Source of the DNA: Granulosicoccus antarcticus IMCC3135
GTDB taxonomy: Bacteria > Pseudomonadota > Gammaproteobacteria > Granulosicoccales > Granulosicoccaceae
Length of the DNA: 64,000 nt
Direction of reading: 5' to 3'
Assembly (NCBI RefSeq): GCF_002215215.1
Contig: NZ_CP018632.1
Location: forward strand, 1,856,501 to 1,920,500
In this document: positions 3,714 to 18,678 of the stretch, piece by piece
How positions within the stretch are numbered: the stretch's first letter is position 1
Layout: each line of letters begins with the position of its first letter
Translations under genes and position numbers: made by a program
Notes under the pieces: model-generated
Database searches by the model: none
What the model was told of the DNA's origin: nothing
Seen by the model: only the letters and a program-made list of their open reading frames with translations

Positions 3714-5685
3714 CGATCGTACAAAAGGGCAGCCTCATTTGCATCCACACAAGATAGGTGAAGTGCAAGCGGTCGGCGCTACGGAATCCGGTGCCGGTGT
3801 GCACGTCGGTGAAGGCATCAATGCGCCTCAAGGTGGCAATGCTGCGGGCATGCCTGCAGCATTCAGGCAGTCTACGGGAGCTTGCGCGCGCGCCATAGCT
3901 CGAGACAGGTCCATTGATATCACCTTCGACGAAAATGCAGAAGATGTCGAAGGCATGGTCTTGCCGGGTATTCCCGATGATGCAACGGCGCTGGAGCGGC
4001 TTCAAACCCGTGGCCGCAGTGACGCTATCGCTTTGTACAAGCAGTATCATGATGCACGTACTCATGCGCGCTATCAGCCACAAACAGACACATCGCAACG
4101 TTTGCATGCAATGGCGGAGCAGACTCGGGTTGAGTTGCTTGGCGCAAATCTTTACGAAGGTGTAGGGCGTAATCTGGACGCAGCTCTGGACGGTCGCTAC
4201 CGGTTATTACTGGATACGATTCGTAAACCGGTCATCAATCTGGGAGAGGTCGGGGAGCCACGGCTGGGAATTGAACATGCACTTACCTTGTACTTGCGTG
4301 AACAATTGAGTGATCGCCCGCTGAGTCCTGCTGCTGATGAAGTGCTGTCGGATTGGCGTGAGTGGCTGAAAAGCGATGTTTCCAGTAAGTTCAAACCGGC
4401 AGATTTCAATCTCGATGACCAGGCTGGTTTTGCCAGAGCACTGGGCAAACTGCTTCGATCTCTGGAACTCGAAGACGGTGAGCCGAGCGATAATCCTGAT
4501 GAGTTCGATGACGAGGATCAAGCGCAGGACGAGTCACAGACGCCGCAGGACGATTCTGAAAGCAGTGAGTCGGATAGTACGGACTCGCAAGATGAGGCTG
4601 ACTCGGATGCTCAGGAAGAAGATGGCAATGCCGAGGATGGCAGTGAGAGTGTCGAGCCCGATGATGACATCCCTGAGCGTAGTTCAGAGCAGCCTGGAAG
4701 TGAATGGCAGACGACGACGGGCGACGGGACTCGTCGTTCGGAAAATGATTATCACGTGTACACACGTGAGTACGATGAAGTCATTCGGCCTCTGGATCTG
4801 TGTGATGCTGAGGAGCTGACTCGTCTGCGGCAGACGCTCGATAGCCATATTGGTGACCTTCAGCGATCTGTCGGTCGATTCGCCAATCGCTTGCAACGCG
4901 TCTTGATGGCGCAGCAGCGACGCTCCTGGGAATTCGATCTGGAAGAAGGGCAGTTGGATACCTCACGCCTGACTCGAGTGCTTACCGACCCTTTGATGCC
5001 ATTGACCTTCAAGCAGGAATCGGAAACGCCCTTCCGCGATACCGTGGTGACGCTGTTGCTCGACAACTCCGGCTCCATGCATGGTCGCTCGATTCGGGTG
5101 GCTGCCGTCTGCGCCGATATCCTTTCAGCAACGCTGGAGCGTTGTGGTGTGCGTATTGAAATTCTGGGCTTCACAACCGGCGCATGGAAAGGTGGCAAGT
5201 CGCGCGAAAAGTGGGTGGCCGCAGGTTATCCACCGAACCCTGGTCGGCTGAACGATCTGCGGCACATCATCTACAAGGCTGCAGATACACCCTGGCGTCA
5301 GTCAAGGCGTAATCTGGGACTGATGATGCGCAAGGGGCTGCTCAAGGAAAATATCGATGGTGAGGCACTGCAATGGGCGCATGGTCGATTGCTGCAACGT
5401 ACCGAGCAACGGCGCATTCTGATGATGATCTCTGACGGCGCTCCTATTGACGATTCGACTCTGTCTACCAATCCGGGACGCTTTCTGGAAAAACATCTGC
5501 GACACGTCATTTCGCAGATAGAGCGTCAAGGAGAGGTGGAGCTGGTGGCAATCGGTATCGGCCACGATGTTCGTCAATACTATTCCCGAGCCACCACGAT
5601 CCATGATGTGACGCAGCTGGCCGATGTCATGACAAGTCAGCTGGTCGAGCTGTTTTCAGCCAGCCATGATCGACAGCCTCGTTGA
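3703..5685 (+). CDS. cobT: Cobaltochelatase-type VWA subunit CobT
   Basis: About 660 residues. The conserved N-terminal part starts near [17 protein letters not shown] long Asp/Glu/Ser-rich low-complexity linker covers residues about 265-330. The C-terminal part is a von Willebrand A domain with the MIDAS motif [11 protein letters not shown] (Asp at about residue 454). This is the CobT layout. CobT pairs with CobS as an AAA+/VWA chaperone complex for CobN. The TTG start at 3703 is chosen because GAGGAG lies ten bases upstream and the overlap with cobS stays short; a GTG at 3661 is an alternative. The 3' end overlaps the convergent HD-domain gene by 59 bases. Confidence 0.88.
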
Positions 5686-6268
5686 AGATCGCATTGGCCA
5701 TATCCCATAGGGTATCCGAGCCTTTGCCTATCTGTGCTGTTCTGGAGGTTACCTGGTCCAGAGACACCTCGTAATCCTTCCAGGTGCCGCCCTCGGTCAG
5801 GGCATTGAGCAGCACGGGCTGCAGTCTGTCCAATGCCTTTGCGAAGCGGGCATCGGCAGACTGGGCTGCCTCAAATTCGTCCCAGCACTGACGTAGCAGC
5901 AGAGACTGATCATCGGGTAACAGGCCGAACAGGCGAGTGGCCGCAGCCTGTTCGTTAGCCTCTTGCTCCGGGTTCTGTTGGCCGTGCAGGGGAGTGTCGC
6001 CGGCATCCACTTCCACGATGTCGTGCACCATCAGCATGAAAATAACGCGCTCTATATCGACAGCTTCGTTGGCGTGTTCGGCCAGAATACGAGCGAACAT
6101 CGTCAGGTGCCAGCTGTGCTCAGCACTGTTCTCACGTCGCTCGTTGGAAGCTATATGACTGGCCCGGTAGACAGATTTCAAGGCATCGATTGCGACGAGA
6201 AATTCTATCTGTGACTTCAGGCGTGGAGCCAGTTTTTCCGACCAGGCAGGCAAATTCGTGGCAGTCAT
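5627..6268 (-). CDS. HD-domain hydrolase, YfbR/5'-deoxynucleotidase-like
   Basis: 213 residues from the ATG at 6268 (an upstream ATG at 6316 would add 16). Metal-binding HD signature: NSAEHSWHL (His), then [14 protein letters not shown] (His-Asp), as in the HD_3 group that includes the E. coli deoxynucleotidase YfbR. Members remove phosphate from (deoxy)nucleoside monophosphates; substrate here is not proven. It is transcribed divergently from the preT/preA pyrimidine-degradation genes and its last 59 bases overlap cobT in the opposite direction. A role in supplying nucleosides or bases to the adjacent pathway is an inference from position. Confidence 0.82.
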
Positions 6269-6371
6269 CGCAAGCGGTGTTAATGGGTTGACCCAGACAA
6301 TAACGGATAGTGCCACGCTCGTGTCAGGTCCGAGTAGGTAAATTTATTATTGCAAAGGCGTTATTAAAAAT

Positions 6372-6387
6372 TTGACCAATTGGAAAA
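6372..6387. promoter_or_regulatory. Degenerate RutR-type operator before preT
   Basis: TTGACCAATTGGAAAA matches the RutR box TTGACCA-N2-TGGTCAA at all but two of its 14 fixed positions. It lies about 85 bases upstream of the preT start, in the gap shared with the divergent HD-domain gene. A perfect copy is present beside rutR at 10327-10342. Binding is predicted. Confidence 0.6.
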
Positions 6388-6469
6388 AAATTGCTTTAAT
6401 CGAAGATATTCCGTGATCGCCTGTCTGGCGAAATACACGGTGACAGAGTCTGTGGAGGAGTCCTTAACG

Positions 6470-7786
6470 ATGGTGTCCAGTAATCACGAACTGTTGCAGC
6501 AAGACCTGCATCCGCCCTTGTCACGGCATGAGGCGACGGTCGAATCTGATCGGTGCTACTTCTGTTATGACGCGCCTTGTGTCACTGCCTGTCCCACGGG
6601 TATCGACATCCCGCTCTTTATCCGGCAGATAAGTACGGACAATGTCTCAGGCTCGGCACGTACTATTTTCAATGAAAATATTCTGGGCGGTATGTGCGCC
6701 CGGGTATGTCCCACAGAAACATTGTGTGAACAGGCCTGTGTTCGCAATACAGCCGAAGATAACCCGGTTCGTATCGGTGAATTGCAGCGTTACTCCACCG
6801 ACCACCTGATGGAGACCGGTCAGCAACCGTTCACTCCAGCTGCCAGTACCGGGCGCAAGGTTGCAGTTGTGGGGGCCGGTCCTGCAGGTCTTGCCTGTGC
6901 GCACAGGCTTGCATTATACGGACATGCGGTTGATATTCTGGAGGCTCGTCCCAAGCCCGGTGGGCTTGATGAGTACGGCATAGCAGCCTATAAAACAGTC
7001 GATGACTTTGCACAACGTGAAGTTAGCTACATCCTGTCCATCGGAGGTATTGACGTGCTGCATGGCAAGGCGTTGGGAGAAGACTTCACCATGGATGAGC
7101 TCAAGCGCGATTACGATGCTGTGTTTCTTGGTATGGGGCTTGGGGCTGTTAATCAGCTGGGTATCGAAGGTGAAGAGCTTGATGGCGTTGATGATGCGAT
7201 CGATTTCATCGAGGAACTGCGTCAGGCAGATGACCTTTCAACGCTTGAAGTTGGCGCTGCGACTATCGTGATTGGTGGTGGTATGACAGCCATTGATGCC
7301 GCAGTACAAAACAAAATGCTGGGTTGTGAGGAGGTCACGCTAGCCTATCGCCGTGGTGTTGAATTCATGAATGCCAGTCCCTTTGAACAGGATCTGGCCA
7401 AGGTCAATGGTGTGGTTGTTCGCAACTGGTTGCAGCCCTTGCGTGTGATTGGTGAGAACGGCCGGGTCAGTGGTGTGGAGTTCGCTCGCACGGCTGTAGA
7501 GGATGGTCGCTTTGGAGTAACCGGAGAGACACTGATTTTGCCGTGCGACAGAGTGCTCAAGGCTATCGGTCAGAAGTTTGATGACAGTATTAATAGTGCA
7601 AGTGGTGAAGCGACAGTGGTGTTTGAAAAAGGTCGAATCGTGGTTGATGCAGATCGCCGAACCTCGGACGAAAAAGTCTGGGCGGGTGGTGATTGCGTCG
7701 TCGGCGGTGAAGACTTGACCGTCGCGGCTGTGCAGGACGGCAAGCTTGCCGCCGAATCCATTCATTCAATGCTGGCAAAGGGGTAG
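6470..7786 (+). CDS. preT: NAD(P)-dependent dihydropyrimidine dehydrogenase, PreT subunit
   Basis: 438 residues. PreT takes electrons from NAD(P)H through FAD and iron-sulfur clusters and passes them to PreA for reduction of uracil or thymine. Cysteines for two N-terminal 4Fe-4S clusters are visible (C29, C32, C37, C41 and C76, C80, C86, C90). An FAD site VAVVGAGPAGLACA is at about residue 131 and an NAD(P) site IVIGGGMTAIDAA at about 265, the GltD-like fold. The start at 6470 is supported by GGAGGAG nine bases upstream; an earlier ATG at 6380 has none and lies inside the operator region. preA follows after four bases. Confidence 0.93.
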   Translation: MVSSNHELLQQDLHPPLSRHEATVESDRCYFCYDAPCVTACPTGIDIPLFIRQISTDNVSGSARTIFNENILGGMCARVCPTETLCEQACVRNTAEDNPVRIGELQRYSTDHLMETGQQPFTPAASTGRKVAVVGAGPAGLACAHRLALYGHAVDILEARPKPGGLDEYGIAAYKTVDDFAQREVSYILSIGGIDVLHGKALGEDFTMDELKRDYDAVFLGMGLGAVNQLGIEGEELDGVDDAIDFIEELRQADDLSTLEVGAATIVIGGGMTAIDAAVQNKMLGCEEVTLAYRRGVEFMNASPFEQDLAKVNGVVVRNWLQPLRVIGENGRVSGVEFARTAVEDGRFGVTGETLILPCDRVLKAIGQKFDDSINSASGEATVVFEKGRIVVDADRRTSDEKVWAGGDCVVGGEDLTVAAVQDGKLAAESIHSMLAKG

Positions 7787-7790
7787 GCAC

Positions 7791-9089
7791 ATGGCTGATC
7801 TGAGCAGCAATTTTCTGGGTATTAAATCACCTAACCCTTTCTGGTTGGCGTCCGCGCCACCGACGGACAAGGAATATAACGTCGTTCGGGCATTTGAAGC
7901 GGGCTGGGGAGGGGTTGTCTGGAAGACGCTGGGCGAAGACCCCAGTGTGGTTAATGTCAACGGGCCACGCTATGGCGCCATGTACTCCAGCGATCGAACG
8001 CTGGTCGGATTCAATAATATAGAATTGATTTCCGATCGCCCGCTACAGATAAACCTGGATGAAATAAAGCGGGTCAAGCGTGACTGGCCCGATCGTGCTG
8101 TTGTGGTATCCCTGATGGTGCCTTGTGAGGAGCAGAGCTGGAAGGATATTCTGAGCAAGGTCGAGGACACGGGTGCAGATGGCATCGAATTGAACTTCGG
8201 ATGTCCGCACGGCATGTCGGAACGAGGCATGGGTGCGGCTGTCGGTCAGGTGCCTGAGTATATTCAGATGGTGACCGAATGGTGCAAGCAGAATACCCAG
8301 ATGCCGGTTATCGTCAAGTTGACGCCAAATATCACGGATATCAAAGCGCCAGCAACGGCTGCAGTGAATGGCGGTGCAGATGCCGTATCTCTGATTAATA
8401 CCATCAACTCCATCATCAGCGTTGATCTGGATACCATGTCGCCCAACCCTTCCATTGATGGCTGGGGATCACATGGTGGTTACTGCGGTCCTGCCGTCAA
8501 GCCAATCGCGCTGAACATGGTCGCTGAAATCGCGCGTAATCAGGCAACGGCAGGTATTCCCATATCGGGTATTGGTGGAATTACAACCTGGCGTGATGCT
8601 GCTGAATTCATGGCACTGGGGGCTGGTAATGTTCAGGTATGTACCGCAGCGATGACTTATGGCTTTCGTATCATCGAAGAGTTGACACAAGGTCTGTCAG
8701 ATTGGATGGATACCAGCGGTTACAAGAGCCTCGACGATTTTGTCGGCAAGGCGACGCCGAATGTGAAGGATTGGCAACAGTTGAATCTCAACTACATCGC
8801 AAAGGCAGTCATTGATCAGGACCTTTGTATCCAGTGTGGTCGTTGTCATGTGGTGTGTGAAGATACCTCGCATCAAGCCATTACCTCAATGGTGGATGGC
8901 AAGCGACATTTCGAGGTGATCAATGAAGAGTGTGTCGGCTGTAACCTGTGTGTCAGTGTTTGTCCGGTTGATCAGTGCATCAGCATGGAGCAGGTGACCG
9001 AAGGGGTCGATGTCCGAACAGACAAGCCAATCTTGAGCGAATATGCCAACTGGACGACTCACCCCAATAACCCTTCTGCCCAGCGTTGA
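7791..9089 (+). CDS. preA: NAD(P)-dependent dihydropyrimidine dehydrogenase, PreA subunit
   Basis: 432 residues. An FMN-binding dihydroorotate-dehydrogenase-like barrel (SPNPFWLASAP, GIELNFGCPHG, PISGIGGI, GAGNVQVCTA) is followed from about residue 345 by a two-cluster ferredoxin module (CIQCGRCHVVC and CVGCNLCVSVCPV). This is the catalytic subunit that reduces uracil/thymine to the 5,6-dihydro form, the first step of the reductive pyrimidine pathway. It sits four bases after preT, so the two are surely co-translated. Its 3' end overlaps the opposite-strand glycosylase gene by 31 bases. Confidence 0.94.
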   Translation: MADLSSNFLGIKSPNPFWLASAPPTDKEYNVVRAFEAGWGGVVWKTLGEDPSVVNVNGPRYGAMYSSDRTLVGFNNIELISDRPLQINLDEIKRVKRDWPDRAVVVSLMVPCEEQSWKDILSKVEDTGADGIELNFGCPHGMSERGMGAAVGQVPEYIQMVTEWCKQNTQMPVIVKLTPNITDIKAPATAAVNGGADAVSLINTINSIISVDLDTMSPNPSIDGWGSHGGYCGPAVKPIALNMVAEIARNQATAGIPISGIGGITTWRDAAEFMALGAGNVQVCTAAMTYGFRIIEELTQGLSDWMDTSGYKSLDDFVGKATPNVKDWQQLNLNYIAKAVIDQDLCIQCGRCHVVCEDTSHQAITSMVDGKRHFEVINEECVGCNLCVSVCPVDQCISMEQVTEGVDVRTDKPILSEYANWTTHPNNPSAQR

Positions 9090-9607
9090 TGTTTTTCGGT
9101 TAAGGACAGGCTAGCCATGGCTGGACTGGATGAGGGCAGGCTGACAAGTCGTATCTGTCGGCCCTGCCTTTGTTGCTCGTCCAGTACCGACTGGCAGTGT
9201 CGGACAAGCAGTTTCTCTGCACTCTTGCCGTTGCAGGCAATGCAGCTAAGGGCTGGATGGTTCTGGATGTAATCACCGATATCGTTAGCCTGTTCGCTAC
9301 TGCGAACGATACGGCTGTCGAGGCTGCCAGGTCTTTCGCAACTGGCCAGAACATCCCAAAGTGCATAGCCGCCTTGCACCAGAAGAGAGCAACGCTGCGA
9401 GTAGTCCAGTGCATGGGCCGAGATATAGCTGAGTTCTGATACTTTCAGAATAGCGAGCATGATCGGCCAGAATGCATTGCGTGGATGGGCGTAATACTGG
9501 TGAGCTACGAGTGAGGCCTGTCCGGGCATTGTTCCCAGAACCAGGGTGTGTGCGGTAGAGCTTGACAGAGGGGAGAATGAGTGTGAAGCCATCATGATAA
9601 TCAGCAT
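9059..9607 (-). CDS. DNA-deoxyinosine (hypoxanthine-DNA) glycosylase-like protein
   Basis: About 182 residues (a start at 9592 would give 177). It resembles family 6 of the uracil-DNA glycosylase superfamily: LVLGTMPGQASL at the N-terminus, YYAHPRNAFWPIM with the conserved Tyr/His/Asn/Trp, YALWDVLASCERPGSLD, and the C-terminal LPSSSPA motif. Known members excise hypoxanthine arising from adenine deamination. It lies inside the pyrimidine-degradation island, convergent to preA and before rutR in the same direction. Whether this base-excision gene is functionally linked to the pathway is unknown. Confidence 0.82.
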   Translation of the reverse strand: MLIIMMASHSFSPLSSSTAHTLVLGTMPGQASLVAHQYYAHPRNAFWPIMLAILKVSELSYISAHALDYSQRCSLLVQGGYALWDVLASCERPGSLDSRIVRSSEQANDIGDYIQNHPALSCIACNGKSAEKLLVRHCQSVLDEQQRQGRQIRLVSLPSSSPAMASLSLTEKHQRWAEGLLG

Positions 9608-9649: not shown

Positions 9650-10309
9650 TCAGGGTGTCAGGCCGCGCATCAGAATCATCTTCAGTGTGCGTTCTGCATC
9701 GGTGTACAGATCCTCTTGTGACTGATCATTCAAGGCCTGAATCTGCGGGTCAAAGTCCGCATAGTGCTGTGTGGTGGACCAGATCAGAAATATCAGATGC
9801 AAAGGCGATACCGGGATAAGTTTGCCGTCATCAATCCATGCTTGTATTATTGCGCACTTGGCATCGACCAGGGTCTTCAACTCGTTGTCGAGAAAGGGGC
9901 GTATGACGGGTGCACCCTGCAGTATTTCATTGGCAAAAAGCCGGGAGGCGTAGGGGGCGTCGCGTGACAGATGCAGCTTCTGGCGTGCATATTTCCACAG
10001 CTCTTCGATAGGGTCCCCATCCGGATCCAGACTCTCCAGTGGGTCGAGCCAGACTGTGAGTGTGCGTGCCAGAACAGCGGCGTAGATATCTTCCTTTTTC
10101 TTGAAGTAGTACAGCACATTGGCTTTTGACATGCCTGCTGTTAGTGCAATCTGGTCAACGGTGGAGCCACGATAACCATTGGTAGAAAAGACATCCAGAG
10201 CGGCACGCACGATACGCGCCTCGTTCTGTATCTGGATGCGTGTTCGTTTCCGGGAAGAGTCCGATGTGGAGTCCCGTTTATTGTTGAGACTGATCCGATT
10301 GTTTGTCAA
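9650..10309 (-). CDS. rutR: TetR-family regulator of pyrimidine catabolism, RutR-like
   Basis: About 219 residues. An N-terminal TetR HTH ([36 protein letters not shown]) is followed by a C-terminal domain with [18 protein letters not shown], very close to the RutR family signature. RutR of E. coli binds uracil/thymine and releases DNA. A perfect RutR box lies directly upstream. The only ATG upstream, at 10369, would place the operator inside the coding region, so a TTG at 10309 is proposed; this start is uncertain. It is divergent from the dehydrogenase gene and is probably autoregulated through the shared operator. Confidence 0.87.
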
Positions 10310-10326: not shown

Positions 10327-10342
10327 TTGACCAAGTGGTCAA
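10327..10342. promoter_or_regulatory. RutR operator, perfect palindrome
   Basis: TTGACCAAGTGGTCAA is an exact match to the E. coli RutR consensus TTGACCA-N2-TGGTCAA. It lies in the gap between rutR (minus strand) and the semialdehyde dehydrogenase gene (plus strand), where one bound dimer could control both. TTGACC can also serve as a -35 element on either strand. Confidence 0.87.
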
Positions 10343-10398
10343 GATACGATAGCGTGCGTGCAACCACAAGTAAAACTAGTGTAATCGAGAGTGCAACC

Positions 10399-11883
10399 AT
10401 GATACCGAACCTGATAGGTGGGCAACGTGTAGAGACCAGCAGTGGTCACTCCCAGCCGGTTTATAATCCTGCTACTGGTGAAGTTATCGATCAGCTTGGC
10501 CTGAGTACGGCCGAGGAAGTTGCAGCTGCCGTGGAAGTTGCCGCAGAAGCATTTCCGGCCTGGGCTGCGACACCACCGCTCAAGCGTGCGGCTATCATGT
10601 TCCGCTTCAATGAGTTGCTGATAAAGCATGCCGATGACGTGGCTCGGGAAATTACTCGTGAACATGGAAAAACACACGACGATGCCCTGGGTGAAGTTCA
10701 GCGTGGTCGGGAAGTCGTGGAGTTTGTGTGTGGTATTCCACATTTGCTCAAGGGGGAGTTCTCCCGCAATGTCGGTCCTAATATCGATTGCTGGTCTGAT
10801 CGCCAGGCGCTGGGTGTCTGTGCCGGCATTACGCCATTCAATTTTCCGGCGATGGTGCCCTTGTGGATGTATCCGGTCGCCATTGCCTGTGGCAATACCT
10901 TTGTCCTGAAGCCATCCGAGAGAGATCCCTCGGCGGTGATGATGGTTGCCGACCTGTTGCATCAGGCAGGCCTGCCACCGGGCGTGCTCAACGTGGTTCA
11001 GGGCGGCAAGGAAACTGTCGACGCTTTGCTGGATCATCCCAAGGTGCAGGCCATCAGTTTTGTCGGCTCGACCCCGATCGCCGAATATGTCTATAACCGT
11101 GGCACTCAGGCCGGTAAACGGGTACAGGCGCTCGGCGGTGCGAAGAATCATATGGTGATCATGCCGGATGCCGACATGGATCAAGCGGTGGATGCGCTGA
11201 TGGGAGCCGGGTTCGGATCTGCTGGCGAACGCTGCATGGCCATCTCGGTTGCAGTGCCGGTTGGTGAAGAGACGGCTGACCGATTGGTCGCTGCTCTGCG
11301 ACCACGGGTGGAAGCGTTGCGTATCGGACCTGGAGACGATCCTGATACGGAGATGGGGCCCGTCATTACGGCAGCTGCCAAGGAGAAGATAACCGGACTG
11401 ATCGATTCAGGCGTGGATGCTGGCGCAGAACTGGTTGTCGATGGTCGCAATATTTCCTTGCAGGGCTATGAAAACGGCTATTTCGTCGGTGGTTCCCTGT
11501 TTGACAAGGTAACCACGGACATGCAGATTTATAAGGAAGAGATCTTCGGACCAGTTCTGGCGGTGGTGCGAGCCAAGCATTACGAGGAGGCGGTCAAGAT
11601 GATCAACGACCACGAATACGGAAACGGCACGGCAATCTTTACACGTGACGGTGATGCGGCCCGGTCATTTACTGACAGCATTCAGGTGGGCATGGTGGGT
11701 GTGAATGTGCCCATTCCTGTGCCGGTTGCCTACCACAGCTTTGGTGGCTGGAAACGATCGCTGTTTGGCGATCATTCCATCTATGGGCCTGAAGGTGTGC
11801 ACTTCTATACTCGCCTTAAAACCGTGACCAGCCGTTGGCCCACAGGGATCAAATCCGGAGCCGTATTTACTTTCCCTACCTGA
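10399..11883 (+). CDS. mmsA: CoA-acylating (methyl)malonate-semialdehyde dehydrogenase
   Basis: 494 residues, ALDH superfamily. [24 protein letters not shown] and [10 protein letters not shown] with the catalytic Cys at residue 279 are the MmsA/IolA signatures. The enzyme converts malonate semialdehyde or methylmalonate semialdehyde plus CoA and NAD+ to acetyl-CoA or propionyl-CoA. Position in this cluster points to the last step of beta-alanine (from uracil) and beta-aminoisobutyrate (from thymine) catabolism. The start at 10399 follows GAGAG; earlier in-frame starts lie in the operator region. Expression is probably controlled by the RutR box 57 bases upstream. Confidence 0.92.
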
Positions 11884-11952: not shown

Positions 11953-13200
11953 ATGGCGATTACGAGCAATATGCGCATCAACGGCGAACGCTTGTGGGAT
12001 TCACTGATGGAAATGGCTCAAATCGGGCCGGGTATTGCTGGTGGTAATAATCGCCAGACGCTGACGGATGAAGATGCAGAAGGCCGTCGCCTGTTCGAGC
12101 GCTGGTGCACTGAGGCAGGTCTGAGCATGGGCCTGGACAAGATGGGCACCATGTTCGCTCGGCGCGAGGGTACGGATCCGGATGCCTTGCCGGTCTATGT
12201 TGGCAGTCATCTGGACACACAGCCTACCGGCGGCAAATACGACGGTGTTCTGGGTGTCCTGGGTGCTCTGGAAATCATGCGCCAGCTCAATGACTTGAAC
12301 ATCAAGACCAAGCATCCGATCGTTGTCGTCAATTTCACCAACGAGGAGGGCACCCGCTTTGCTCCGGCCATGGTGGCCAGTGGTGTTTTTGCAGGTGTTC
12401 ATACACTTGACTGGGCTTATGATCGGGAGGATGCCGAGGGTGTGCGGCTCGGTGATGAACTCAAGCGAGTCGGTTATCTTGGGGATGAAGAAGTGGGAGC
12501 TCGCAAGATGCACGCTTTCTTCGAGCTGCATATCGAACAGGGACCGATTCTTGAAAAAGAGAATCTGGATATCGGCGTCGTTACCCATGGACAAGGCTTG
12601 AAGTGGCTTGAAACAACACTGATCGGCAAGGAGAGCCATACCGGTTCCACGCCGATGCCTATGCGTGTCAATGCAGGGTTGGGTATGGCACGCATGACTG
12701 AGCTGGTCAACGAGATAGCCTTGAGTCACGCACCTGATGCTGTCGGTGCCATCGGTCAGTGCAATGTCTATCCTAATTCGCGCAATATCATTCCCGGTAA
12801 GGTGGTTTTTACCGTTGATTTTCGGCATCCGGATAAAGCCGTGATTGCCGACATGGAAGAGCGTTACCGGGCGGGTGCGAAAAAAATAGCCGACAAGATA
12901 GGTCTGGGCATGGATATCGAGGAGGTCGGTGGTTTCGATCCTGTGGAGTTTGATGCCGATTGTGTCAGTGCGGTGCGTAATGCAGCCGAGCGTCTGGGCT
13001 ACAGCCACCGTAACCTGGTATCAGGCGCTGGTCATGATGCCTGCTGGATCAACCGCGTGGCCCCTACGGCCATGGTGATGTGTCCTTGCGTCGACGGTCT
13101 TTCACATAATGAGGCCGAAGAAATTTCTCTGGAATGGGCTGCCGCAGGAGCCAATGTTCTGTTTCACGCAGTCGTTGAAACCGCTGGCATTGTGGACTGA
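11953..13200 (+). CDS. Zn-dependent N-carbamoyl-beta-alanine amidohydrolase (M20 family)
   Basis: 415 residues, M20/allantoate amidohydrolase-like family. Visible metal-site motifs: GSHLDTQPTGGKYDGVLG, NFTNEEGTRFAPAM, ELHIEQGPILE and the C-terminal SGAGHDACWI. The family hydrolyses N-carbamoyl amino acids, allantoate or N-carbamoyl-beta-alanine. Its place between the semialdehyde dehydrogenase and the dihydropyrimidinase makes beta-ureidopropionase (product beta-alanine, CO2 and ammonia) the best call. AAAGGG lies eight bases before the ATG. Substrate assignment rests on context; an allantoate or hydantoin role is the alternative. Confidence 0.87.
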   Translation: MAITSNMRINGERLWDSLMEMAQIGPGIAGGNNRQTLTDEDAEGRRLFERWCTEAGLSMGLDKMGTMFARREGTDPDALPVYVGSHLDTQPTGGKYDGVLGVLGALEIMRQLNDLNIKTKHPIVVVNFTNEEGTRFAPAMVASGVFAGVHTLDWAYDREDAEGVRLGDELKRVGYLGDEEVGARKMHAFFELHIEQGPILEKENLDIGVVTHGQGLKWLETTLIGKESHTGSTPMPMRVNAGLGMARMTELVNEIALSHAPDAVGAIGQCNVYPNSRNIIPGKVVFTVDFRHPDKAVIADMEERYRAGAKKIADKIGLGMDIEEVGGFDPVEFDADCVSAVRNAAERLGYSHRNLVSGAGHDACWINRVAPTAMVMCPCVDGLSHNEAEEISLEWAAAGANVLFHAVVETAGIVD

Positions 13201-13266: not shown

Positions 13267-14721
13267 ATGAGCAAGGTGATCAAAGGCGGCACAGTTGTTA
13301 CCGCCGACCGAAGCTACACGGCAGACGTCAAGATAGAAAACGGTGTCATCACGCAGATTGGGGACAACCTGTCTGGTGATGAAATTCTGGATGCTACCGG
13401 TTGCTATGTCATGCCCGGTGGGATCGATCCGCATACTCATCTGGAAATGCCGTTCATGGGCACCTATTCAACGGATGATTTTGAATCAGGTACCCGAGCT
13501 GCATTATCAGGTGGAACCACAACGGTTGTTGATTTCTGTCTGCCGGCCCCGGGCCAGTCATTGCTGGAAGCTCGGCAGATGTGGGACAACAAGACCGTCA
13601 AGGCTTCCTGCGATTTTTCCTTTCATATGGCGATCACCTGGTGGGACAAGCAGGTGTTCGAAGAAATGGCAGCGGTGGTGGACAGTGGTATTAACACGTT
13701 CAAGCATTTCATGGCCTACAAGGGGGCTTTGATGGTCAACGATGAAGAGATGTACTCATCGTTCCAGCGTTGTTCTGCTCTGGGTGCCATGCCATTGGTG
13801 CATGCCGAAAACGGTGATGTCGTTGCCCAGTTGCAGGCCAGTCTTCTGGCGGAAGGCAACACAGGTCCCGAGGCACATGCCTATTCGCGTCCTCCTCAGG
13901 TCGAGGGTGAAGCGGTTAATCGTGCAGTCATGATTGCCGACATGGCAGGCGTACCTCTGTACGTGGTGCACGTCTCCTGCGAGGAGGCACATGAGGCCAT
14001 CCGGCGCGCACGCCAAGCGGGCAAACGAGTCTATGGGGAACCGCTGGTACAGCATCTGACACTGGACGATTCGGAGTATGCAAACGCTGATTGGGACCAT
14101 GCGGCCAGACGCGTCATGTCGCCACCGTTTCGCAGTTCCGTGCATCAGGACTCTCTGTGGGCAGGTCTGGCATCAGGTAGTTTGCAGGTGGTGGCCACGG
14201 ATCATTGTGCCTTCACAACAGAGCAGAAGCGCCTGGGTCTGGGTGACTTTACTCAGATTCCCAATGGCACCGGAGGGCTGGAAGACAGATTGCCGGTCTT
14301 GTGGTCGCGTGGTGTCAACACCGGGCGTCTGACGATGAACGAATTTGTCGCAGTTACCTCGACCAATATTGCCAAGATACTGAATATGTATCCTAAGAAA
14401 GGCGCCATTCTGGAAGGTGCGGATGCCGATATCGTGGTCTGGGATCCGGAGCGGCAGAAGACAATTCGTGCCGCCTCGCAGCAGTCTGCCATTGATTACA
14501 ACGTCTTCGAGGGTTTCGAACTCAAGGGGCTGCCGCGTTTCACTTTGACTCGTGGTCAGTGTGTCGTGACTGAAGACAAAGTGGAAACCGAAGAGGGACA
14601 TGGCAAGTTTGTACCACGCAAGGCCTATCCGGCTGTCAATCGCGCCCTGTCGCAGTGGAAGGAATTAACCGCACCACACCCGGTCAAACGTGATCCTTCA
14701 AAGATGCCTGCTGGTGTTTGA
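13267..14721 (+). CDS. hydA: Dihydropyrimidinase (D-hydantoinase)
   Basis: 484 residues, cyclic amidohydrolase family. Motifs: PGGIDPHTHLEMPFMGT (metal His pair), FKHFMAYKGALM with the lysine that is carboxylated to bridge the metals, MPLVHAENGD, PLYVVHVSC and VATDHCAF (last metal Asp). The enzyme opens 5,6-dihydrouracil or dihydrothymine to the N-carbamoyl beta-amino acid, the step between PreTA and the amidohydrolase encoded just upstream. AGGAG lies about 12 bases before the ATG. The downstream ABC genes follow after 45 bases and are probably co-transcribed. Confidence 0.93.
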   Translation: MSKVIKGGTVVTADRSYTADVKIENGVITQIGDNLSGDEILDATGCYVMPGGIDPHTHLEMPFMGTYSTDDFESGTRAALSGGTTTVVDFCLPAPGQSLLEARQMWDNKTVKASCDFSFHMAITWWDKQVFEEMAAVVDSGINTFKHFMAYKGALMVNDEEMYSSFQRCSALGAMPLVHAENGDVVAQLQASLLAEGNTGPEAHAYSRPPQVEGEAVNRAVMIADMAGVPLYVVHVSCEEAHEAIRRARQAGKRVYGEPLVQHLTLDDSEYANADWDHAARRVMSPPFRSSVHQDSLWAGLASGSLQVVATDHCAFTTEQKRLGLGDFTQIPNGTGGLEDRLPVLWSRGVNTGRLTMNEFVAVTSTNIAKILNMYPKKGAILEGADADIVVWDPERQKTIRAASQQSAIDYNVFEGFELKGLPRFTLTRGQCVVTEDKVETEEGHGKFVPRKAYPAVNRALSQWKELTAPHPVKRDPSKMPAGV

Positions 14722-14766
14722 TCTTGGTAGAGTTCCGAGCCGGTGCACGGACCCGAGTTCACGGTC

Positions 14767-15561
14767 ATGACTGAAGCTGCCAAAGTCATAGAAATCGACA
14801 AACTGTCGCTGGTTTTTCCCACCAGCGATGGTGATGTCCAGGCGTTGCAGGACATTGATCTGACAATCAATCAGGGTGACTTCGTCTCCTTCATCGGACC
14901 TTCCGGTTGCGGCAAGACAACGCTGCTGAGGGTCATTGCCAACCTTGAGCAGGCAACTGCCGGTTCAATCGAGGTTAATGGCATGTCGCCGGAAGAGGCA
15001 CGGCTGGCAAGAGCCTATGGGTATGTGTTTCAAGCCGCCTCGTTGTATCCCTGGCGAACCATTGCCAGCAATATTGCCTTGCCGCTGGAAATAATGGGGC
15101 TGAAGGGCGATGCCATTCGAGCGCGTGTCGAGAAAAACCTGGAGTTGGTCGATCTTGCAGGTTTTGGCAAAAAATACCCCTGGCAGCTTTCAGGTGGCAT
15201 GCAGCAACGAGCATCGATAGCCCGTGCGCTGGCGGTTGAGCCTGATCTGTTATTGATGGATGAACCTTTTGGTGCGCTGGATGAAATTGTGCGAGATCAT
15301 CTCAACGAGCAATTACTGAAACTCTGGGCAAAGACCAACAAGACAGTTGTCTTTGTCACGCACTCCATTCCCGAAGCCGTCTTCCTCTCCAGCCACATCG
15401 TGGTGATGTCACCACGCCCCGGCAGAATCCATGAGATTATCGAGAGCAACCTGCCTGCAGAGCGTGATCTGTCGATTCGTGAAACTCCCGAGTTTCTGCA
15501 GCTGGCTCACCGGGTGCGTGATGGACTTCGGGCTGGTCACAGCTACGATGAGGTCGTCTGA
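14767..15561 (+). CDS. ABC importer ATP-binding protein (nitrate/taurine/NMT1 type)
   Basis: 264 residues from the ATG at 14767 (a GTG at 14743 would add eight). Walker A GPSGCGKTTLLR, signature LSGGMQQRASIARAL, Walker B LLLMDEPFGALDE and H-loop VFVTHSIPEA. It belongs to the SsuB/TauB/ThiZ group that energises import of small organic molecules. The next gene starts directly after its stop codon. Genomic context predicts import of pyrimidines, dihydropyrimidines or hydantoins. Confidence 0.9.
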   Translation: MTEAAKVIEIDKLSLVFPTSDGDVQALQDIDLTINQGDFVSFIGPSGCGKTTLLRVIANLEQATAGSIEVNGMSPEEARLARAYGYVFQAASLYPWRTIASNIALPLEIMGLKGDAIRARVEKNLELVDLAGFGKKYPWQLSGGMQQRASIARALAVEPDLLLMDEPFGALDEIVRDHLNEQLLKLWAKTNKTVVFVTHSIPEAVFLSSHIVVMSPRPGRIHEIIESNLPAERDLSIRETPEFLQLAHRVRDGLRAGHSYDEVV

Positions 15562-16443
15562 ATGGGATCCAGAGTCGGGACCGCCTTGTTTCCGGTCACA
15601 GTTGTTACGCTGGCCATCATTTTACTCTGGTACGTCGGGGCCGCATCGCTGAATCTGGCCTGGGAAAAAAGTGTTGCCGGGCGGGCAGGGACCACCCCAT
15701 CCTTCATCAGCATGGTGCAGAACACCATGCATCAGGAACGTCCGGTACTACCGGCACCGCATCAGGTGGTGAGCGAAATTATCGACACCACCTTCAAGAA
15801 GAAAATCACCTCCAAACGCTCGCTGGTCTACCATGCCGGTATCACGCTGTCCTCTTCCATGCTGGGTTTTGCCATGGGCACATTGCTGGGGATTCTGCTG
15901 GCAGTGGCCATTGTCTATAACGAGGCGTTGAACAAGAGCCTGCTGCCGTGGATCATCGCCTCGCAAACGATTCCAATTCTGGCAATTGCGCCGATGATCA
16001 TCGTGGTGCTTAATGCTGTCGGTGTGCAAGGCCTGCTTCCGAAAGCCTTCATATCAATGTATCTGAGTTTCTTCCCGGTGGCGGTGGGTATGGTCAAGGG
16101 ACTGAACTCACCCGACAGTAGTTATCTGGACCTGATGCGAACCTACAACGCATCGAGCTTGCAGACTTTCTTCAAGTTGCGTCTGCCAACTTCCCTGCCA
16201 TACCTGTTCACCAGTATGAAGATTGCTGTTGCCATCTCACTGGTTGGTGCCATTGTGGCCGAGCTACCCACGGGGGCCGTTGCTGGCCTCGGTGCGCGTC
16301 TGCTGGCGGGTTCCTATTACGGTCAGACAGTACAGATCTGGTCCGCGCTGGTTGTGGCCTCAATACTGGCAGCCACCCTTGTCGTGCTGATCGGCTGGTT
16401 GGGCGACTGGGTCAATCGTCGCATGGGGTTGGTTCGTGGATAA
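15562..16443 (+). CDS. ABC importer permease 1 (SsuC/TauC-like)
   Basis: 293 residues; an N-terminal membrane helix, a periplasmic stretch, then the usual permease core with five or more helices. The EAA-type loop is seen as LMRTYNASSLQTFFKLRLPTSL. The ATG follows the ATPase stop without a gap. The following permease overlaps its 3' end by eight bases. It should form a heterodimeric channel with permease 2. Confidence 0.88.
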   Translation: MGSRVGTALFPVTVVTLAIILLWYVGAASLNLAWEKSVAGRAGTTPSFISMVQNTMHQERPVLPAPHQVVSEIIDTTFKKKITSKRSLVYHAGITLSSSMLGFAMGTLLGILLAVAIVYNEALNKSLLPWIIASQTIPILAIAPMIIVVLNAVGVQGLLPKAFISMYLSFFPVAVGMVKGLNSPDSSYLDLMRTYNASSLQTFFKLRLPTSLPYLFTSMKIAVAISLVGAIVAELPTGAVAGLGARLLAGSYYGQTVQIWSALVVASILAATLVVLIGWLGDWVNRRMGLVRG

Positions 16444-17581
16444 GGTCTCTGACAAGATGAGTCGTCCTCAATCACTAACCGGCAAGCCGGTTTTCCCTTA
16501 TCGGGTCATGGAACGCATTCTGCTGACCGGGGCCGGCGGACTGGCTGTCGGCAGCTTGCTGCTGCAGGGACAGATCTTGTCCGGGCTGGGCATGGCATTG
16601 GTGTCATTACTGGCTTTTCGAGTGCTGACAAGGTCCAGACTGATGGCCGCCTTGCTTGTCGGTGGCGTATCGACGGTTGTCGCCTGGTCTTTGATCAGTC
16701 AGGTGGATCAGCCAGAGATGGTCAGCGCAGGATTCTGGTGTCAGGTGGTCGCCGCCTGGTTACTGGCATGGGCCTGCGTTGAGCAGTTGTCCAGTATTCA
16801 TACATTGTCATCACTGTACCGCAGCATACTCGGGGTGATCATACCGGTGCTGTTTGGCGTGTGGCTGCTGATTTTATGGGAACTGCTGACTCGGGGGCTG
16901 GATGTGCCACAGGTTCTATTGCCCTCGCCAAGTCAGATAGGCGAGCGTCTGATGAACTCCACCAGCATACTCTGGGCAGATTTCAAGCAGACCTTTCTGA
17001 AAGCGGTATTGATCGGCTATGCCGTAGGTTGTGGGGCTGGTTTTGTGGTGGCGGTATTGATAGATCGATCACCGTTCCTGCAACGTGGTCTGCTGCCCAT
17101 TGGCAATCTGGTTTCCGCCTTGCCGATCGTGGGTGTCGCACCAATCATGGTGATGTGGTTTGGATTCGATTGGCCTTCAAAGGCAGCTGTGGTGATCATC
17201 ATGACTTTCTTTCCCATGCTGGTGAATACGGTTGCCGGGCTGGCTGCAGCTCAACCCATGCAGCATGATCTGATGAAAACCTATGCGGCCAGCTATTGGC
17301 AAAGCCTGTTCAAGCTTCGCATACCTGAAGCTTTGCCCTTCCTGTTCAACGCCTTGAAGATCAATTCCACGCTGGCCATGATCGGCGCCATTGTGGCCGA
17401 GTTCTTTGGTACGCCAACCGTGGGCATGGGCTTTCGCATTTCCACCGAAGTCGGGCGCATGAATGTCGATATGGTCTGGGCTGAAATCGCCGTGGCAGCG
17501 CTGGCAGGATCCATGTTCTATGGCCTTATTGCTTTACTGGAAAGAATGTTCACGTTCTGGCATCCATCTGTTCGCAGTTAA
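16436..17581 (+). CDS. ABC importer permease 2 (SsuC/TauC-like, N-terminally extended)
   Basis: 381 residues from a GTG that overlaps the previous gene; an ATG at 16457 is an alternative. The C-terminal 250 residues are a binding-protein-dependent permease with EAA loop LMKTYAASYWQSLFKLRIPEAL. The first 120 or so residues add about four hydrophobic helices (for example GGLAVGSLLL and LAFRVLTR) not found in a minimal permease. It is homologous to, but longer than, permease 1. Confidence 0.88.
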   Translation: MDKVSDKMSRPQSLTGKPVFPYRVMERILLTGAGGLAVGSLLLQGQILSGLGMALVSLLAFRVLTRSRLMAALLVGGVSTVVAWSLISQVDQPEMVSAGFWCQVVAAWLLAWACVEQLSSIHTLSSLYRSILGVIIPVLFGVWLLILWELLTRGLDVPQVLLPSPSQIGERLMNSTSILWADFKQTFLKAVLIGYAVGCGAGFVVAVLIDRSPFLQRGLLPIGNLVSALPIVGVAPIMVMWFGFDWPSKAAVVIIMTFFPMLVNTVAGLAAAQPMQHDLMKTYAASYWQSLFKLRIPEALPFLFNALKINSTLAMIGAIVAEFFGTPTVGMGFRISTEVGRMNVDMVWAEIAVAALAGSMFYGLIALLERMFTFWHPSVRS

Positions 17582-17673
17582 TTCACACGTCTGCTTGGCT
17601 GGCGTGTATTGCGCAAGAGATGTCTGTCTGAGCAAGCTGTACCAACTTGTACCAACCGAGGATAGAAGCTAGC

Positions 17674-18678
17674 ATGAAAAGGTTAAAACACTGTACGGCG
17701 CTGACTGTATTGGCGGCTGCATTGCTGGGCGCATCAGCGCAGGCAAGTGCGGCAGATAATGTTGCTCTGCAGCTCAAGTGGGTGACTCAAGGCCAGTTTG
17801 CAGGCTACTACGTTGCCCAGGACAAGGGCTTTTATGACGAGGCAGATCTGAACGTCACGATCAAGCCGGGTGGTCCCGATATCGCACCTCCGCAGGTCAT
17901 TGTCGGTGGTGGCGCCGATGTTATTGTCGACTGGATGCCATCAGCACTGGCCAGCAGGGAAAAGGGTGTGCCGTTGGTGAACATTGCTCAGCCGTTCAAA
18001 CGCTCGGGCATGATGCTGGTCTGCCTCAAAGAGAGTGGCATAACTTCGCCCGAGGATTTCAAGGGACGCACACTGGGCGTCTGGTTCTTTGGTAACGAGT
18101 ACCCGTTTCTGAGCTGGATGTCGGCACTGGGTATCTCGACTGAAGGTGGGGACGAGGGAGTCACAGTCCTGAAGCAGGGTTTCAATGTCGATCCTCTTCT
18201 GCAGAAGCAGGCTGACTGCATTTCAACCATGACCTATAACGAGTATTGGCAGGTGATTGATGCCGGTATCACAGAGGACCAATTAGTCGTGTTCCCTTAC
18301 GAAGAGCAAGGTGTGTCGACCATGGAAGACGGCCTGTACGTGCTGGAAGAGAATCTTGAAGACGATGCCTTTGTCGAAAAAATGGCTCGTTTCGTCAAGG
18401 CCAGCATGAAGGGCTGGGAATACGCACGTGAAAATCCGGACGAAGCTGCCGAGATCGTGCTCGAAAATGATGCCAGTGGTGCTCAGACTGAGAAACATCA
18501 GCGACGTATGGTTCGAGAAGTCAACAAGCTGACAGAAGGCACTGATGGCTCTCTGGACGAGGCTGACTACCAGCGTACTGTGCAGACGTTGTTGACGGGT
18601 GGATCCGATCCGGTCATCACGAAAGAGCCGGAAGGTGCATGGTCATCAGTGGTGACTGATAAAGCGCTGGAAATGTAG
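17674..18678 (+). CDS. ABC importer substrate-binding protein, NMT1/THI5-like
   Basis: 334 residues with a signal peptide cut near AQASAADN. The mature start ALQLKWVTQGQFAGYYVA and GFYDEADLNVTIKPGG are typical of NMT1/THI5-like periplasmic proteins that bind pyrimidine precursors, riboflavin or related rings. GAGGAT lies about ten bases before the ATG at 17674. It closes the importer operon and is followed by a terminator hairpin. The ligand is most likely a pyrimidine or its reduced form, judged only from the neighbouring catabolic genes. Confidence 0.9.
   Translation: MKRLKHCTALTVLAAALLGASAQASAADNVALQLKWVTQGQFAGYYVAQDKGFYDEADLNVTIKPGGPDIAPPQVIVGGGADVIVDWMPSALASREKGVPLVNIAQPFKRSGMMLVCLKESGITSPEDFKGRTLGVWFFGNEYPFLSWMSALGISTEGGDEGVTVLKQGFNVDPLLQKQADCISTMTYNEYWQVIDAGITEDQLVVFPYEEQGVSTMEDGLYVLEENLEDDAFVEKMARFVKASMKGWEYARENPDEAAEIVLENDASGAQTEKHQRRMVREVNKLTEGTDGSLDEADYQRTVQTLLTGGSDPVITKEPEGAWSSVVTDKALEM

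Follow-up and report, generated by a model that had tools for sequence, protein, structure and literature searches.

A perfect RutR-type palindrome between a TetR-family regulator gene and mmsA in Granulosicoccus antarcticus is very probably the operator of a PydR-like repressor of pyrimidine catabolism

In the genome of Granulosicoccus antarcticus IMCC3135, the palindrome TTGACCAAGTGGTCAA (positions 10327-10342 of the 64,000-nucleotide stretch analysed here, which we call the window) is placed between a leftward TetR-family gene resembling rutR and a rightward mmsA gene, and this raises the question of whether a DNA word associated with RutR serves here as the operator of a related regulator with other target genes. 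The sequence agrees at all 14 fixed positions with TTGACCA-N2-TGGTCAA, which we take to be the E. coli RutR consensus, and the window holds no other exact match; the preliminary description of this region, which called it a perfect RutR box between rutR and mmsA, is borne out. A literature search found no paper giving TTGACCA together with RutR, and in the accessible text of PMC10891134 the E. coli consensus is described only as a palindrome of approximately 16 bp. Perfect 7-2-7 palindromes are not rare as such, since there are 15 of them in the window; it is the match to the RutR word that is rare, a first-order model of the window predicting 0.0004 exact matches per window and, for the gap between rutR and mmsA, 5e-7. 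From the comparisons described below we consider it very likely that a RutR/PydR-type TetR repressor uses the box as its operator to control the genes of reductive (Pyd) pyrimidine catabolism, and that uracil relieves the repression.

The genes of the cluster lie in the order preT, preA, DNA-deoxyinosine glycosylase, the rutR-like gene, mmsA, pydC, pydB, and the four genes of an ABC transporter (Table 1). The preTA, pydB, pydC, and mmsA genes together make up the reductive pathway of uracil and thymine degradation. The preT open reading frame (ORF) is listed from 6380, and we take the ATG at 6470 as its start; the true start of preA is probably inside its listed ORF. The regulator ORF as listed starts at 10369, a start that would place the box inside it. 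Judged by context, the pydC-like amidase is a probable beta-ureidopropionase, and the ABC transporter is a probable pyrimidine importer. An arrangement with rutR divergent from pydC-pydB-ABC, and with preA-preT on the other side, is one that the window has in common with Rhizobiales; the placement of mmsA directly beside rutR is seen, among the loci compared, only in six Granulosicoccus loci (L016-L021).

Table 1. Features of the rutR-mmsA region, in window coordinates
Feature	Coordinates	Strand	Basis
Putative -35 hexamer TTGACC, preT promoter	6372..6377	+	sequence
Probable operator 2, TTGACCAATTGGAAAA, one perfect and one degenerate half	6372..6387	+	upstream of preT; 2 mismatches
Putative -10 hexamer TTTAAT, preT promoter	6395..6400	+	17 bp after TTGACC
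preT, dihydropyrimidine dehydrogenase NAD-binding subunit	6470..7786	+	Fer4_20 and Pyr_redox_2 over cut-off; preA neighbour
preA, dihydropyrimidine dehydrogenase catalytic subunit	7746..9089	+	NF006183, 731.5 bits (cut-off 335)
rutR-like (PydR-type) TetR regulator	9650..10309	-	PF08362; presumed TTG start at 10309
Candidate operator 1, perfect TTGACCA-N2-TGGTCAA palindrome	10327..10342	.	exact match; kept beside rutR in relatives
Putative -35 hexamer TTGACC, mmsA-pydC-pydB-ABC promoter	10327..10332	+	first six bases of operator 1
Putative -10 hexamer TAGCGT	10350..10355	+	inside a conserved stretch; TAGCGT in 19/25 anchored loci
mmsA, (methyl)malonate-semialdehyde dehydrogenase	10399..11883	+	TIGR01722, 717.1 bits (cut-off 448.5); ATG at 10399
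pydC-like hydantoinase/carbamoylase family amidase	11953..13200	+	NF006769, 691.5 bits, and TIGR01879, 397.4 bits, both over cut-off
pydB, dihydropyrimidinase	13267..14721	+	TIGR02033, 609.6 bits (cut-off 393.25)
ABC transporter, four genes: ATPase, two permeases, NMT1-type binding protein	14743..18678	+	same-order homologues in relatives

In both this box (operator 1) and a weaker site before preT (operator 2), the TTGACC looks as if it doubles as the -35 hexamer of a catabolic promoter, with the layout TTGACC-N17-TAGCGT at 10327 and TTGACC-N17-TTTAAT at 6372; TAGCGT is a poor match to TATAAT. We examined the best 30 of the 38 RutR places in the Granulosicoccaceae, and a TTGACC-N17-TA...T pattern is present upstream of rutR on the catabolic strand at 25 of the 30 and on the rutR strand at none, the constancy of these letters being built in because the search demanded them; the other five loci are without an anchored promoter. 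The right half of the box, TGGTCAA, was under no such requirement and is perfect in 14 of the 25 anchored promoters. Over the whole box there are no mismatches in 12 of these loci, one mismatch in three, two in two, and three to five in eight; in the last eight they fall mostly in the right half, and one of these loci (L115) has a one-mismatch word 34 bp further on. Part of the family thus preserves the right half and in another part it erodes, with the promoter letters unchanged in both. Such a pattern favors a genuine operator superimposed on a promoter, and it also shows that the palindrome is not required everywhere that the regulator occurs. We also note that the stretch after the box (10345-10355, TACGATAGCGT) varies hardly at all among many family members, a conservation stricter than a plain -10 hexamer needs.

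The same observations could be read as those of a word that is mainly promoter, with TTGACC acting as a -35 hexamer, the palindrome incidental, and the regulator having some other binding site or none. In several family members TTGACC and GATA...T do persist beside an eroded right half, and the preT sites keep their TTGACC side best; however, TGGTCAA belongs to the spacer, whose letters a promoter leaves free, and yet it is perfect in 14 of the 25 anchored promoters. Moreover, many Rhizobiales have this word before rutR, exactly or with one or two mismatches, and so does G236, a gammaproteobacterium of another family that has the same cluster with a word at both places, perfect at preT. We regard a purely promoter-derived word as quite unlikely, and favor an operator superimposed on the -35 region.

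The site before preT, which the preliminary description had missed, is probably a second and weaker operator. It is located 82 bp ahead of the presumed preT start, and a word with no more than two mismatches arises in only 0.00035 of trials with random sequence like the preT gap. Among 80 loci compared, 69 have a preT hit and 54 of these a usable upstream stretch (26 loci were dropped); a word with no more than three mismatches is present upstream of preT in 51 of the 54, versus one of the 54 for a control word. Examples in relatives are TTGACCATTTGGAAAA in Granulosicoccus and TTGACCAATTGATAAA in the Rhizobiales. A search of this genome and its three nearest relatives with the looser pattern TTGACCRNNTGRNNAA gave 37 rows versus 17 for the control, and both operator 1 and a preT-type word are present in all four genomes, approximately 4.0 kb apart; words were taken as common to the four on the strength of their letters, and direct inspection of the intergenic setting covered the window. 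A third word common to all four, TTGACCGTATGGACAA (with a one-letter variant in G045), was rejected as a candidate, as it lies within a 170-codon coding ORF in each of them, presumably recX from its position.

The regulator scores over cut-off for PF08362, the YcdC-like C-terminal domain (160.9 bits, cut-off 25), and for the TetR_N domain (45.8 bits, cut-off 24), and, unlike E. coli RutR, is under the cut-offs of both RutR equivalog models, TIGR03613 (224.3 bits, cut-off 368) and NF011584 (196.6 bits, cut-off 230). It is homologous to E. coli RutR (PDB 4JYK, 3LOC, 6Z1B) over nearly its whole length, with 43% identity and a match to the RutR structures at E 2e-53. Its closest relatives are in Granulosicoccus and other Granulosicoccaceae, and it is nearer to the Rhizobiales regulators (52-57% identity over the best segment) than to E. 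coli RutR; the claim that the site is far from the enteric lineage is only partly right, as the organism belongs like E. coli to the Gammaproteobacteria. In a tree of 34 chosen rows the window protein groups with Granulosicoccus (97/97) and E. coli RutR with a protein of G317 (100/100), the deeper forks being weak and several branches long. The best reading is that the window protein is a PydR-type, RutR-like regulator and not a RutR equivalog.

The residues expected to matter for function are the same as those in E. coli RutR. S51, K52, N54, L56, Y57, Y58, and K62 (E. coli numbering), in the DNA contact region and recognition helix, are identical in all 111 aligned rows, as are W77, Y97, W167, Q171, and Q179, the window protein included; 95 of these rows are distinct, the window gene is counted twice, and the rows were picked by likeness, which favors conserved residues. 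The latter five are the uracil contacts of E. coli RutR according to the legend of Fig. 5 in PMC10891134, where, in the text accessible, acetylation of K52 or K62 is also reported to impair DNA binding strongly, and uracil to weaken it. The proposal that DNA recognition by RutR is conserved is thus well supported at the sequence level, both by these contact residues and by the recurrence of the box beside rutR in the family. The retention of the uracil-holding residues also bears on the identity of the effector. MmsA acts late in the reductive pyrimidine pathway, and with mmsA as the nearest target the operator could be real and yet respond to an intermediate or end product, such as beta-alanine or malonate semialdehyde; since all five residues that hold uracil are kept in every row, we think this very unlikely and prefer uracil as the effector.

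The sequences, where they lie and how well they are conserved, and the retention of the DNA-contact and ligand residues are observed here, and we infer binding, repression, effector, promoters, and operon extent. When pyrimidine is lacking, a dimer of the regulator would sit on operator 1, covering the -35 hexamer and spacer of the mmsA-pydC-pydB-ABC promoter and probably also damping its own divergent gene, and would cover the preTA -35 hexamer at the weaker second site. Uracil (or thymine) would bind in the C-terminal pocket, causing the dimer to release the DNA, and the genes for uptake and degradation would then be turned on. Several points count against this reading: both RutR equivalog cut-offs are missed, the preT site has only one good half, the box has three to five mismatches in eight anchored family promoters, five family loci have no anchored promoter, TAGCGT is a poor -10 hexamer, and the word is scarce before the more distant RutR-like genes described below.

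The box is more than a chance word, because 15 of 48 Granulosicoccaceae genomes hold the exact word, at 17 places in all, versus one place, in the G. antarcticus genome, for the reversed form of the word as a control, and 13 of the 17 are no more than 70 bp from a RutR match. That the exact match is a coincidence is scarcely credible: it recurs once inside an unrelated ORF of the genome, as the control word also occurs once, but in 13 family genomes, that of G. antarcticus among them, it has a RutR match next to it, conservation that speaks strongly against chance, as does the minute expectation for the gap. Four exact family words are away from RutR and were set aside as candidates, those in G000, G020, and G038 being inside ORFs and that in G039 falling barely within an NtrC-like ORF when this is taken at its longest; neither G038 nor G039 has a RutR match at E <= 1e-20. 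The box in G039, a genome that is 87% complete, is perfect and at the very start of the NtrC-like regulator ORF (L137, 726-741). A RutR match is present in 36 of the 48 genomes, most of which are without the exact word.

Within the G. antarcticus genome itself (7.78 Mb in one contig) there are two exact places, versus one for the reversed control. The second of these and all five one-mismatch places each fall within an ORF, the ORFs being 107 to 609 codons long; a wider regulon among the seven is thereby rejected, operator 1 alone being outside ORFs. The preliminary description had named a scatter of the motif over random genome places as evidence against its reading; exact and one-mismatch places outside ORFs show no such scatter. 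With no more than two mismatches there are 83 places versus 62 for the control, and the weaker matches are therefore mostly background, 50 of the 83 having been listed and few of those viewed in context; there may be weaker intergenic sites elsewhere in the genome.

In a wider comparison, a word with no more than two mismatches is found upstream of 69 of 80 rutR relatives and in none of the 80 for the control; the remaining 11 have three or four mismatches, and the control never has fewer than three. These relatives are mostly from Mesorhizobium and close kin, so that the counts are not independent. The 80 include 12 from the Granulosicoccaceae, nine with no more than one mismatch and three with three or four. 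RutR is patchy in the Gammaproteobacteria, being present at E <= 1e-40 in six of 274 sampled genomes, G. antarcticus included. Seven more distant RutR-like genes in five other gammaproteobacterial genomes have the word with no more than two mismatches upstream in only one case (L161), in which there is also a pyd cluster; the other six have no strong pyd set nearby, within 17 kb, 16.5 kb, and 9 kb searched for three of them and approximately 2 to 3.6 kb for the other three.

The presumed targets may be compared with those of E. coli RutR. As in E. coli, the box lies between the regulator gene and a divergent catabolic operon, but there it is rutA and its operon that are beside rutR, and the best site in the rutR-rutA gap, TGGACTAAACGGTCAA, has three mismatches, so that the G. 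antarcticus site is nearer to the consensus. In G. antarcticus the neighbours of the regulator are pyd genes and not a rutA operon, and nothing in the genome reaches the RutA cut-off of 498.3 bits, the best score being 52.1; the linkage is to dihydropyrimidine dehydrogenase and other reductive-pathway genes, and at the sequence level the operator word is at both promoters expected to be regulated, perfect before mmsA and with two mismatches before preT. The suggestion of different target genes and a changed regulon is thus correct gene by gene (preTA, mmsA, pydC, pydB, and the ABC transporter). Even so, uracil is degraded by either gene set, the end served is unchanged, and the theme has already been published.

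A RutR-like regulator of this kind has been described as PydR in Pseudomonas putida, where it acts as a repressor of the gene for dihydropyrimidine dehydrogenase (Hidese et al. 2012, J Biochem 152:341, as cited in the accessible text of PMC7332683); judging by the title of the PydR paper, the G. antarcticus regulator is alike in being tied to a dihydropyrimidine dehydrogenase gene of the reductive pathway. It is also in keeping with the RutR-type control of pyrimidine catabolism in RegPrecise, in which, according to the part of Leyn et al. 2016 (PMC5343134) that we consulted, RutR regulons were predicted in 68 genomes from 13 groups of Proteobacteria, with a mosaic distribution and taxon-specific motif changes. 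No paper on a RutR-type site in Granulosicoccus was found by a literature search that had most subscription papers outside its reach. The box very probably works as was first thought, and conserved recognition with changed targets is a known theme, of which this is a well-preserved example of a switch described in other bacteria. It is useful for regulon annotation and opens no new question; it does provide a clean two-operator case in which one DNA word and one ligand pocket would serve two unrelated uracil-degrading pathways, and the sister genomes, with one operator half decaying and the promoter letters staying, offer a test of mutual constraint between operator halves and -35 hexamers.

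Two further genes adjoin the presumed switch. The DNA-deoxyinosine glycosylase gene (9059-9607, minus strand; TIGR04274, UDG superfamily, 134.3 bits, cut-off 80) follows rutR on the same strand at a distance of 42 bp, so that a base-repair gene and a uracil sensor apparently share a transcript; homologues lie behind rutR in the six Granulosicoccus loci L016-L021 and were not found in the other compared loci. An HD_3/YfbR-like 5'-deoxynucleotidase gene (5627-6316, minus strand) is divergent from preT, the gap with operator 2 being common to both, and it is the same neighbour of preT in L016, L017, L018, and L021. It is conceivable, if unlikely, that in Granulosicoccus the uracil-sensing repressor drew base-repair (UDG-superfamily glycosylase) and nucleotide-salvage (HD-type 5'-deoxynucleotidase) genes into the same switch; if so, free uracil would tune DNA base excision together with pyrimidine catabolism.

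A second and more distant RutR-like gene (35-40% identity) is present beside pydC, near the first, in ten Mesorhizobium loci (L036, L039, L041-L044, L046, L050, L052, and L064, near 5400-5730) and in one Gemmobacter locus (L058, near 4197).
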